This document shows, one piece after another, positions 1-41,362 of a stretch of 64,000 nucleotides of DNA. The stretch covers positions 1-64,000 of the forward strand of contig CASEOO010000002.1 in assembly GCA_949289565.1 (NCBI GenBank), in the 5' to 3' direction. Below the pieces are notes generated by a model. That model was not told the origin of the DNA. It made no database searches and was given only the letters and a program-made list of their open reading frames with translations. This DNA comes from an uncultured Bacteroidales bacterium (lineage in GTDB: Bacteria; Bacteroidota; Bacteroidia; Bacteroidales; UBA932). How positions within the stretch are numbered: the stretch's first letter is position 1; every line of letters begins with the position of its first letter. The translations under genes and the position numbers were made by a program.

Positions 1-117
1 AATGTCTGGGGTATAATCCTGAAAGAATGGAAAGGCGTGTCCCCGAAGACATCCGCCGTGCTGGTATGCGGTCTGGCGATACTGATATTCTCTCTGGTTT
101 TCCCGAATATCTTCTGA
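1..117 (+). CDS. rhaT: L-rhamnose/H+ symporter, C-terminal end (partial)
   Basis: The first 38 codons of the window are open in frame 1 and end at TGA 115-117; the gene begins outside the window. The visible peptide has a basic loop (KEWKGVSPKTS) followed by one hydrophobic helix and ends in PNIF. This matches the last membrane span of the RhaT family, which imports L-rhamnose with a proton across the inner membrane. The assignment rests on that short match and on the next gene, rhaD; in Bacteroides the order rhaK-rhaI-rhaT-rhaD is usual. It would be co-transcribed with rhaD, 70 bases downstream. Confidence 0.72.
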   Translation, partial: NVWGIILKEWKGVSPKTSAVLVCGLAILIFSLVFPNIF

Positions 118-187
118 GTCGGGAGAGAGGTGCCGCAAAAGGACGCTTTCGGCAACTTGTAACTGGTTAATTTAAAATTTAAGATAT

Positions 188-1000
188 ATGGACAAATCAA
201 TACTTGAAGGACGTCCTGCCCTGGCCAGGCAGATAGAAGACGTGGCTGAGGTAGCCGGCTATCTCTGGCAGAAAGGCTGGGCGGAAAGAAACGGTGGAAA
301 CATCACCGTGAATATCACTGAATACGTGGATGATTCCATGCGGGCTATGCCTGCCATAGGTGCTCCTGTACAGATAGGTCTCACTCTGCCCCGCCTGAAA
401 GGCTGCTGGTTTTTCTGCAAGGGAACGAACAAAAGGATGCGTGATCTTGCCAGGAGGCCGATGGAGAACGGGTCCGTCATCAGGATACTGGACGACTGCT
501 CCAGCTATGAGATTGTGGCGGATCTCCCGGTGAAGCCTACATCGGAACTTCCTTCGCATCTGGCTGTGCACAATGATTTCGTGGAGAGGGGACTGGACTA
601 CAAGGCTTCGCTCCATACACATCCTATCGAGCTTGTAGCCATGTCGCACACGGACAAGTTCCTGAAAAAGGATGTCCTTTCGAATCTGCTGTGGAGCATG
701 ATTCCCGAGACCAAGGCTTTCTGTCCGAGAGGGCTGGGAATTGTGGACTACAAGCTGCCAGGCTCTCTTGATCTGGCTGCATCGACCATCAGCGAACTGG
801 AGGACTATGATGTGGTCATGTGGGAAAAACATGGCGTCTTCGCCGTGGGCTGCGATATCATGGAAGCCTTCGACCAGGTGGATGTGCTGAACAAGTCCGC
901 GCAGATTTACATTGCCTCCAGGTGCATGGGATATGAACCTGACGGCATGACGCTGGAACAGATGAAGGAAATGTCCGTCGCCTTCAATCTTCCGAAATAG
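188..1000 (+). CDS. rhaD: rhamnulose-1-phosphate aldolase
   Basis: Class II aldolase (270 aa, full length) that splits L-rhamnulose 1-phosphate into dihydroxyacetone phosphate and L-lactaldehyde, the last step of the rhamnose pathway in the cytoplasm. The phosphate-binding NGGN lies at residues 35-38. The zinc ligands are His143 and His145 in SLHTHPIEL and His215 in WEKHGVF. Glu120 in TSELPSH fits the catalytic glutamate of E. coli RhaD. The start at 188 has an AT-rich upstream and no Shine-Dalgarno site, as is normal in this phylum. It sits 70 bases after the rhaT tail and is followed by a hairpin-rich repeat element that may end transcription. Confidence 0.93.
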   Translation: MDKSILEGRPALARQIEDVAEVAGYLWQKGWAERNGGNITVNITEYVDDSMRAMPAIGAPVQIGLTLPRLKGCWFFCKGTNKRMRDLARRPMENGSVIRILDDCSSYEIVADLPVKPTSELPSHLAVHNDFVERGLDYKASLHTHPIELVAMSHTDKFLKKDVLSNLLWSMIPETKAFCPRGLGIVDYKLPGSLDLAASTISELEDYDVVMWEKHGVFAVGCDIMEAFDQVDVLNKSAQIYIASRCMGYEPDGMTLEQMKEMSVAFNLPK

Positions 1001-1010
1001 GGTTATATCG

Positions 1011-1228
1011 GCCTTAAATAATATTGAGGGTGGGTCAAAAGTCACGAAGTGACCGCGACTGGAAGGAGCGAGATCCCCCTAATAGGGGTCGAGAGCGGTT
1101 CTATGAGAATGTCCGGGGGACATTCGAAAGCGAGCAGAGGGGGTTAGGATGGGTTCAGTCTTTCGAAGAAAGACGTTTGAGGGTGACCAAAATGGGTCAC
1201 CCTCAATTTGTGCCTTTATGGCAAGTGG
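1011..1228. repeat. modular hairpin-array repeat, copy A
   Basis: A noncoding element built from short inverted repeats laid end to end: GTCAC/GTGAC (1041-1053), CCCCT-aat-AGGGG (1076-1088), GAATGTCC-ggg-GGACATTC (1107-1125), GTCTTTC-gaa-GAAAGAC (1158-1174) and a 12-bp-arm hairpin (1177-1188 with 1195-1206). The outer ends ATTGAGGGTG (1022-1031) and CACCCTCAAT (1198-1207) also pair. The flanks GCCTTAAATAATATTG (1011-1026) and CAATTTGTGCCTTTATGGC (1204-1222) recur around the hairpin at 3574-3644. Modules of the same kind recur at 9964-10020 and 41191-41362. It lies directly after rhaD and could act as its terminator. The 75-codon reading frame across it is not believed. Confidence 0.8.
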
Positions 1229-3573: not shown

Positions 3574-3644
3574 GCCTTAATAATATTGGCATGGCAGGAG
3601 TCTTGGATTCCTGCCATGCCAATTTGTGCCTTTAAGGCAAGTTG
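3574..3644. repeat. 15-bp-arm palindrome with repeat-copy-A flanks, copy B
   Basis: ATTGGCATGGCAGGA (3585-3599) and its exact complement (3609-3623) surround a 9-base loop. The left flank GCCTTAATAATATTG (3574-3588) and right flank CAATTTGTGCCTTTAAGGC (3620-3638) nearly equal the flanks of the element at 1011-1228, while the hairpin sequence between them differs. A run of eight C bases lies nearby at 3514-3521. The rest of the 3474-3772 gap holds the candidate promoter of the transporter gene. Confidence 0.75.
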
Positions 3645-9926: not shown

Positions 9927-9963
9927 AATCTTGATTATAAGTTTTGTGTTATTGGTCAAATCA

Positions 9964-10020
9964 GTCTTTCGGAGAAAGACGTTTGAGGGTGACCCAAAAC
10001 ATTTTCGGGTCACCCTCAAA
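9964..10020. repeat. modular hairpin repeat, copy C
   Basis: GTCTTTC-gga-GAAAGAC (9964-9980) is followed at once by a hairpin with 14-bp perfect arms (9982-9995 and 10007-10020) and an 11-base loop. CAGTCTTTCG, AGAAAGACG and TTTGAGGGTGACC are the same modules, in the same order, as at 1156-1188. It fills the space between serA and the DUF1015 gene inside one operon, touching the serA stop region, and could lower read-through into DUF1015. Confidence 0.85.
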
Positions 10021-40085: not shown

Positions 40086-41192
40086 ATGAGGGAAAATGAT
40101 TTTTCAAGGCTGGAGATAAATTTGCCGAACTGTCTCCGGAATTATCAGTATTTCAGGTCGAGACTGAAGCCTGAAACGAAACTCCTGGTGCTGGTGAAAG
40201 CCAATGCATATGGCCATGGGGCTGTCGAGTTCGCGTCTATGATGGAAAAGGCGGGAGCTGACTATCTGGCAGTGGCCTATCCTGTCGAGGGCGTGGAATT
40301 GAGAAAGGCCGGCATCTGGTCGCCTATTCTGGTGCTGACAGCCGGAACAGATTTTTTCGATGAGATTATAGACAATGCTCTGGAGCCGGGCATACCGAAT
40401 CTGGTGACATTGAAAGAGTTCTGCAAAGTGCTGGAAGCCAGGGGACTGGAGAACTTTCCGGTGCATATCAAGCTGGATACCGGGATGCACAGGCTGGGGT
40501 TCATGACCAGCGAGCTGCCAGAGCTGTCAGAGTTTTTAAGGACATGCAAAAATGTCAGGGTCAAGTCTGTATATTCCCATCTGGCGGCCGCGGAAGATCC
40601 GTCCAGCGACGAGTTCACTCTCGGGCAGATAGATATGTTCCGCAGAAATGCGGATTCCCTGACGGAAGTACTGGGTTACAGACCTATGTACCATATATTG
40701 AATTCTGCAGGCATAGAGCGTTTCCCTCAGTATCAGTTCGACATGGTGCGCCTGGGGATAGGAATCTACGGGGTGAGCGCTCTTCCTGACGTGCGTCTGG
40801 CCCCGGTGGCTTCTTTCAAGTGCAAGATACTTCAGATCAAGCATCTGACTGCCCAGGACGGGACTATCGGCTATGGCCGTCACGGGCATATTTCTCCGGC
40901 CGGCACAGTGATAGCCACTATCCCTGTAGGGTATGCCGACGGTGTGGACAGGCGGCTGGGGAACGGGGCAGTGTCTTTCATGCTGAACGGCCATAGGGTC
41001 CCTACGATCGGCAATATATGCATGGATATGTGCATGCTTGATATCACCGGTGTGCCTGCAGAGGTGGGCGATACCGTGACTGTCTTCGGAGAAGAGCCTG
41101 CGGCTTCGGAGTTAGCGGACATTCTCGGTACTATACCTTACGAGATCTTCACTTCCGTTCCGCGCCGTATTGAACGAGTGATAGTAAAATAG
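40086..41192 (+). CDS. alr: alanine racemase
   Basis: A 368-aa PLP enzyme interconverting L- and D-alanine for peptidoglycan synthesis. The PLP lysine is in LVKANAYGHGA (near residues 36-46). The C-terminal domain has IGYGRHGHISP with the catalytic tyrosine, and GYADGVDRRLGNG near 281-293; PTIGNICMDMCMLDI is the usual dimer segment. The length is normal. The ATG at 40086 (RENDFSRLEINL) is preferred over a long open frame from 39987 that runs through the promoter palindrome. Its stop codon overlaps a perfect palindrome (41191-41218), the first hairpin of repeat copy D. Confidence 0.94.
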   Translation: MRENDFSRLEINLPNCLRNYQYFRSRLKPETKLLVLVKANAYGHGAVEFASMMEKAGADYLAVAYPVEGVELRKAGIWSPILVLTAGTDFFDEIIDNALEPGIPNLVTLKEFCKVLEARGLENFPVHIKLDTGMHRLGFMTSELPELSEFLRTCKNVRVKSVYSHLAAAEDPSSDEFTLGQIDMFRRNADSLTEVLGYRPMYHILNSAGIERFPQYQFDMVRLGIGIYGVSALPDVRLAPVASFKCKILQIKHLTAQDGTIGYGRHGHISPAGTVIATIPVGYADGVDRRLGNGAVSFMLNGHRVPTIGNICMDMCMLDITGVPAEVGDTVTVFGEEPAASELADILGTIPYEIFTSVPRRIERVIVK

Positions 41193-41362
41193 AGAGGGTG
41201 CCCGCGGGCACCCTCTCTATCGTCTTTCTGCGAAAGACTGGACCTTCTTAACCCCCGTAGACTAACGTCTACGACCCCTATTAGGGGTATCTTGAGCCTC
41301 CGGCTCAGTCCCTTTGGGACTTTCGGGGCACCCTCTCTATCGTCTTTCTGCGAAAGACTGGG
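41191..41362. repeat. modular hairpin-array repeat, copy D
   Basis: At least six hairpins lie back to back with almost no spacer: a 28-bp perfect palindrome (41191-41218), GTCTTTC-tgc-GAAAGAC (41222-41238), CGTAGAC-taac-GTCTACG (41256-41273), ACCCCTATTAGGGGT (41274-41288), TGAGCC-tcc-GGCTCA (41293-41307) and GTCCC-ttt-GGGAC (41308-41320). The first 36-bp block (41206-41241) then returns exactly at 41326-41361, a period of 120. Read on the minus strand, the order CCCCTAATAGGGG, GGGGGTTA, CAGTCTTTCG, AGAAAGACG, GAGGGTG is the same as in copy A. It separates convergent alr and the DJ-1-family gene. Confidence 0.88.

Follow-up and report, generated by a model that had tools for sequence, protein, structure and literature searches.

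The window, that is, the whole stretch of 64,000 nucleotides that was analysed, contains close to its start an aldolase-family gene (positions 188-1000) that, in our reading, is probably rhaD-like and for which matches were found in two uncultured Bacteroidales MAGs (98%) and in Candidatus Cryptobacteroides intestinipullorum (86%); judging by sequence, the source organism can be assigned to the Cryptobacteroides-type Bacteroidales MAGs. Contig C14 of this genome ends in a second copy of window positions 1-472, 89% identical. Next to the aldolase-family gene lies copy A of the repeat element described here, a row of small hairpins (Table 1). The first-pass annotation placed it at 1011-1228 within a frame of ATTGAGGGTG and CACCCTCAAT; both framing sequences are present (1023-1032 and 1198-1207) but the true limits are narrower, and inside its ATTG/CAAT frame copy A spans 1026-1204. 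The five inverted repeats noted in that annotation were all found, namely GTCAC/GTGAC, CCCC/GGGG, GAATGTCC/GGACATTC (the H4 arms, at 1107-1125), GTCTTTC/GAAAGAC and TTGAGGGTGACC/GGTCACCCTCAA. In the window orientation, the components follow each other in the order left end G[AT]GGGTGGGTC, S, H2, P, H4, GGGGGTTAGGATGG, T and terminal hairpin; in relatives, module H2 is a perfect GCGACTGGGAGTCGC, GCACCGGGTAGGTGC or GAGCCGTAGGCTC. Folded as RNA, the whole of copy A beats 200 of 200 shuffles on each strand (z -3.5 and -5.3), a terminator scan makes a call on the minus strand only, and no Rfam family matched in the window.

The modules of copy A return at both of the places to which attention had been drawn: near 41.3 kb in the same order but on the opposite strand (copy B), and near 9.97 kb in part, with the last two modules standing alone (copy C). 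Copy B sits between convergent genes for alanine racemase and a DJ-1/PfpI protein, and a 36-nt end sequence is found on both flanks of its core. The interval of copy C holds a different, terminator-like hairpin in both G364 and G341, which are the nearest relatives (about 92% identity over window positions 1-1000).

Table 1. Coordinates in the window of the element copies, the modules of copy A and a paralogous form of its 3' region
Feature	Position	Strand	Basis
Copy A, complete element, long variant, framing ATTG/CAAT	1023..1207	+	Limits set by the hairpin of the relative at this site and by the paralogous hairpin 3585-3623
Left end GAGGGTGGGTC, imperfect inverted match to right end	1026..1036	+	Left ends compared across copies
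Module S, hairpin GTCAC-GAA-GTGAC	1041..1053	+	Covariation alignment
Module H2 (GCGACTGGAAGGAGCG), degenerate hairpin in copy A	1055..1070	+	Comparison with relatives and covariation alignment
Module P, hairpin CCCC-TAATA-GGGG	1076..1088	+	Anchor scan and covariation alignment
Module H4, long variant, hairpin GAATGTCC-GGG-GGACATTC	1089..1138	+	Copy comparison
Module T, hairpin GTCTTTC-GAA-GAAAGAC	1158..1174	+	Anchor scan and covariation alignment
Terminal hairpin TTGAGGGTGACC-AAAATG-GGTCACCCTCAA	1177..1206	+	Sequence differs among copies, pairing kept
Paralogous 'empty' form of the copy A 3' region, hairpin ATTGGCATGGCAGGA..TCCTGCCATGCCAAT with copy A flanks	3585..3623	+	Repeat D20
Copy B, complete	41189..41361	-	Modules of copy A, read in the window
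Copy C, partial: module T and terminal hairpin only	9961..10019	+	Modules of copy A, read in the window

Copies, distribution and location of the element

The element is modular and non-coding, with a length of 140-190 bp. In the source genome (G000; 2.54 Mb in 46 contigs, 96% complete), a BLAST search with copy A gave 72 matches, of which the second-best (1.7e-80) is not attributable to chance, and anchor scans combined with reading identified at least 43 full or partial copies, a lower bound for which the stretches around the copies were examined. As in repeats of the BOX and SPRITE type, the modules keep a fixed order and the internal ones are variable. Module H4 is represented by GTGCA, by a short hairpin or by a form of about 50 nt, and at one orthologous site differs between two species, being long in G341 and short in G364 (L319 and L301, respectively), so that modules are exchanged in place. 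A piece of about 75 nt splits module T in three copies of the source genome; in G245 (L309), a piece of roughly 75 nt lies within the P loop with TAA on both sides. In several relatives, H4 is the only module that matches, with 67-117 matches. That its form of about 50 nt occurs in several genomes apart from the other modules (L157-L159, L171, L172, L174 and L213) suggests a repeat in its own right.

Matches to copy A are present in 16 of the 151 genomes of the genus, mostly with tens of matches in each of the nearest relatives. In the order-wide sample, only two of the 393 genomes match, both from the same genus, and 391 lack the element, which thus appears, within this sampling, to be confined to a single genus of the Bacteroidales. 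The compared genomes are MAGs or of unstated origin (all relatives identified by name are MAGs), and in some of them the copies often lie near contig ends. Phage and plasmid collections searched with the element yielded no match, and an origin from either was rejected on this ground. In G057, five near-identical copies have different flanks, which indicates recent multiplication. The many further copies that the first-pass annotation named as supporting evidence are therefore there, dozens of them in the source genome, and together with the covariation described below, they support its distinction between a family of small-hairpin repeats and ordinary terminators.

The element is found mainly at the 3' ends of genes and between convergent genes. 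According to simple ORF calls, which for copy A automatically chose a wrong antisense ORF, 20 of about 40 copies are located between convergent genes, an arrangement that accounts for 17% of gene pairs (p about 1e-6) and for 22% of intergenic bases (p about 1e-4). The copies between codirectional genes occur in both orientations without strand preference, an observation that is neutral with regard to an RNA role. The bases before the copies are A-rich (0.43) and the first 6 bases after them are T-rich (0.44), against 0.27. For transcripts arriving from either side, the element would probably serve as a terminator-like structure. One copy is in frame within a gene (L055 7704-7820, minus strand of G000:C9), where it adds roughly 37 residues after a start resembling a signal peptide and before the conserved mature portion (GRHEFSAGTGI); this arrangement resembles the Rickettsia palindromic elements found in genes.

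Resident hairpins at orthologous sites

The flanks of the copies in the source genome were located in G364 and G341. At most sites where both flanks could be aligned, the element is absent from the relative, and another hairpin, mostly terminator-like, often occupies the interval. A hairpin with a folding z <= -2 is present in 15 of 22 orthologous intervals, a figure to be read against the hairpins that are expected at gene ends anyway; folding z-scores were used because a count of perfect stems was too strict, missing stems with mismatches or large loops.

Near-exact replacement of a hairpin by the element is seen at three sites only, most intergenic sites being too diverged for the junctions to be placed. 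The first is the site of copy A, where a CATGGCAGGAGTCTTGGATTCCTGCCATG hairpin lies between the same flanks in G341 and is also retained in the paralogous region of the window (Table 1); in both places, the hairpin (CATGGCAGGA) stands between almost the same ATTG and CAAT as the element. The second site (C32:1650) lies within a gene for a low-molecular-weight phosphatase. In G341 and G364, the gene is intact and contains TGTCCGC-ATATTTCA-GCGGACA; in the source genome, the element occupies the interval of this hairpin to within one base and without duplication. The interrupted gene (L017 1546-1854, G000:C32) also carries a 144-bp in-frame deletion compared with the relatives and, given this deletion, may already have been in decay.

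The third site is within R2, a second modular hairpin repeat (AACGTGAATTCGATGAAATGAATGG..GTAACGTCAGTTC) in whose inner hairpin slot the element occurs. The genomes G130, G364 and G341 each have at least 40 matches to R2, with identities reaching 99% in G130 (loci in relatives are L183, L313, L314 and L344-L373), and there are a few copies in the source genome (G000:C30:57453-57614, G000:C43:193944-194107 and G000:C28:71924-72077). In at least 40 copies of R2, the slot contains TTCTCCCCTACGCAGGGGAGAA between GTAAG and TTTAAG, or a close variant. In L313 and L314 (G130) and in L377 (G362, another R2 subtype), a complete element replaces this hairpin foot to foot; the other occupants of the slot are partial elements. 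The composites of R2 and the element may descend from one or two events, and independent replacements are few overall. At all three resolved sites, the resident hairpin is lost and no target duplication is present.

Other sites show different histories. At C27:5935, comparison with G364 reveals a clean gain, with the core inserted into a pre-existing partial element and flanked by a direct repeat of about 20 nt; this gain can be explained by ordinary recombination between copies. Comparison of G364 with G341 over one contig gave few direct pairs of empty and filled sites. At the site of the copy C16:138080, G341 has another long, repeat-like insert, GTTGGCGATTAAAAAG..CTTTTTAGTCGCCAAC (L288, G341:C35), and G364 a short spacer without a hairpin. 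The idea that every copy sits between the arms of a host hairpin found no support, since a permutation test on host inverted repeats just outside the copies was not significant (p = 0.11).

The loss of the hairpins bears directly on the possibility that the element is an ordinary MITE, with terminal inverted repeats recognised by a transposase encoded elsewhere and small deletions at some of the insertion sites. Such an origin, which is possible although we consider it doubtful, is compatible with a short, non-coding, multicopy element with defined ends, with the 16-bp inverted ends GAGGGTGACCCAAAAG/CTTTTGGGTCACCCTC of the near-identical copies in G057 (those of the source genome are imperfect and variable), with the AT-rich bases directly at both ends and with the interruption of the phosphatase gene. 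However, none of the three resolved sites has a target duplication and each has lost its hairpin; the ends differ among copies of one genome. Furthermore, the element is GC-rich (0.547 against 0.498 for the window), whereas MITEs are typically AT-rich (PMC10969869), and among the loci that were read there is no larger, gene-bearing relative. One spacing of element ends that could have represented a parental IS, in G122 (L160), held no recognisable transposase, and this candidate was discarded.

Covariation and rewritten stem arms

An alignment of 37 copies from several element-bearing genomes shows that pairing in the stems is maintained under sequence change. Base pairs are formed in 93.5% of the cells, 10 pairs are double-changed compared with 4.3 in shuffles, and 40 cells are changed on both sides compared with 15. 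The covariation score is 0.092, against 0.044 for shuffled alignments, none of which reached the observed value, and 0.011-0.029 for slid controls; as the alignment includes related copies from which the structure itself was derived, these controls are guides rather than probabilities. In module S, for instance, the AC/GT part is changed to CC/GG in other species (column pair 8-14: AU 20, CG 17). Covariation is strongest in the terminal stem, for which, in a count that needs no alignment, 34 distinct left arms are found among 53 contexts with a pairing score of at least 10.

At one site or more, one arm of a stem looks like a copy of the other arm and of the host gene end. A plain terminator, AAAAAGCGTGGAA..TTCCACGCTTTTTccatac, is present in the relatives at C2:99162. 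The copy in the source genome has a shorter loop, and its right arm, TCCACGCTTTTTTCATTTGACT, exactly repeats in inverse orientation the left arm of the stem together with the last codons of the gene, whose end is unchanged; this arm is then joined to the core of the element. The copy C20:47612, for which no ortholog was found, has the same design. At C31:34010, one and the same difference from the relative (CCCGGTGCCG against CCCTGTGCCT) is seen in the left repeat and in each of the two right arms. DNA template switching is an established route to simultaneous compensatory changes and to exact inverse-copy arms (PMC8794818) and could also account for covariation of the element stems. The compensatory stem changes that had been named as support were thus found, but selection for structure, to which they were to be ascribed, is just one reading of them, the rewriting of arms being another.

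Selection on RNA would be the main force if the element were a structured RNA or a 3' UTR terminator that evolved by compensatory substitution, with its copies spread by ordinary recombination. Covariation, strong folding on both strands, placement at 3' ends and the A-rich and T-rich flanks all fit this explanation, which nevertheless seems improbable: copies between codirectional genes show no strand preference, the great majority of the sampled genomes of the genus lack the element, close relatives hold unrelated hairpins in its place, and an arm that copies the end of a host gene is hard to obtain by stepwise compensation.

Relationship to known repeats and possible route of spread

Mobilisation of a REP/REPIN-type element by a RAYT (Y1 transposase) is very unlikely: the element is palindromic, extragenic, non-autonomous, hairpin-forming and present in many copies, like REP and REPINs (PMC3116915), and the source genome encodes a single detected RAYT-like transposase (L051 7000-8650, G000:C25), but this gene has, on either side, arrays of a different REP-type repeat (GACTAAAGCCGCG..GTAGTTAGTC / GACTAAAGCCGCG..GTAGTTAGTCGC), 20 RAYT loci from related genomes lack any element module, and no RAYT match was detected in the element-bearing genomes G362, G130, G406, G155, G057, G126 and G119. 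The caution of the first-pass annotation against a REP or BIME assignment was accordingly well placed. A repeat related to the RAYT-flanking array follows the element copy at C28:139218.

The closest parallels, drawn from published descriptions of structure and placement and across a phylum boundary, are with repeats of Streptococcus pneumoniae. The BOX elements (boxA-boxB-boxC) are likewise small, modular repeats with variable internal modules and predicted stem-loops, over-represented between convergent genes, occasionally disrupting genes and nested with other repeat families (PMC3049150). However, BOX is reported to have terminal inverted repeats and target duplications (PMC3049150), in contrast to the loss of a hairpin without duplication at the three sites resolved here. 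SPRITE, a repeat similar to rho-independent terminators, and RUP share with the present element a terminator-like hairpin between A-rich and T-rich ends and a convergent location (PMC3049150); the element differs in that it consists of some five hairpin modules, with terminal stems that vary, and no IS with matching ends was found in the loci read. The hairpin-forming and double-hairpin elements of sponge and Allomyces mitochondria are also rows of hairpins that spread rapidly and are occasionally inserted in frame into genes, those of Allomyces without flanking duplications (PMC2800124). They are mitochondrial, and the portion of the source consulted does not describe the replacement of one hairpin by another (PMC2800124).

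Taken together, these features suggest, with a probability that we put at roughly one half, that the element is a non-autonomous, modular interspersed repeat of the BOX/SPRITE/MITE kind that settles at the 3' ends of genes, replaces hairpins already there, often terminators, and spreads mainly by DNA copying rather than by cut-and-paste. It would be a new family of this kind, and its hairpin-replacing spread is probably unusual. In a possible scenario, a replication or repair fork stalls at a hairpin foot, whereupon the nascent strand would copy a distant element between the terminal feet of that element and rejoin beyond the old hairpin, which would be lost. Template switching, the same process, would rewrite one arm of a stem from the other, and recombination between copies would swap modules in place. 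Template-switch mutations, through which perfect hairpins are created or repaired, account for compensatory changes and inverse-copy arms but have been studied as local events (PMC8794818), whereas the present scenario would need an entire element from elsewhere to take the place of a hairpin. The three replacements and the rewritten arms are, as a set, best accounted for by copying from hairpin to hairpin in the course of replication or repair; a hairpin-specific enzyme is a less likely alternative. The copying route, like the absence of a dedicated enzyme, is inferred. More tentatively, the element might exemplify a class of mobile DNA without a dedicated transposase, in which a larger hairpin element takes over, foot to foot, the place of a hairpin in the recipient while this is being replicated, with the stems re-templated at the same time.

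The question of how REP, BOX and other hairpin repeats spread without an obvious transposase is a long-standing one. R2, of which well over a hundred copies were detected in the compared genomes, is a ready target in which the empty and filled states of the slot can be compared, so that the idea of hairpin replacement is directly testable. If true, hairpin replacement would explain the fast turnover of terminators at gene ends with pairing kept, and covariation in such stems would by itself be no proof of selection on RNA.
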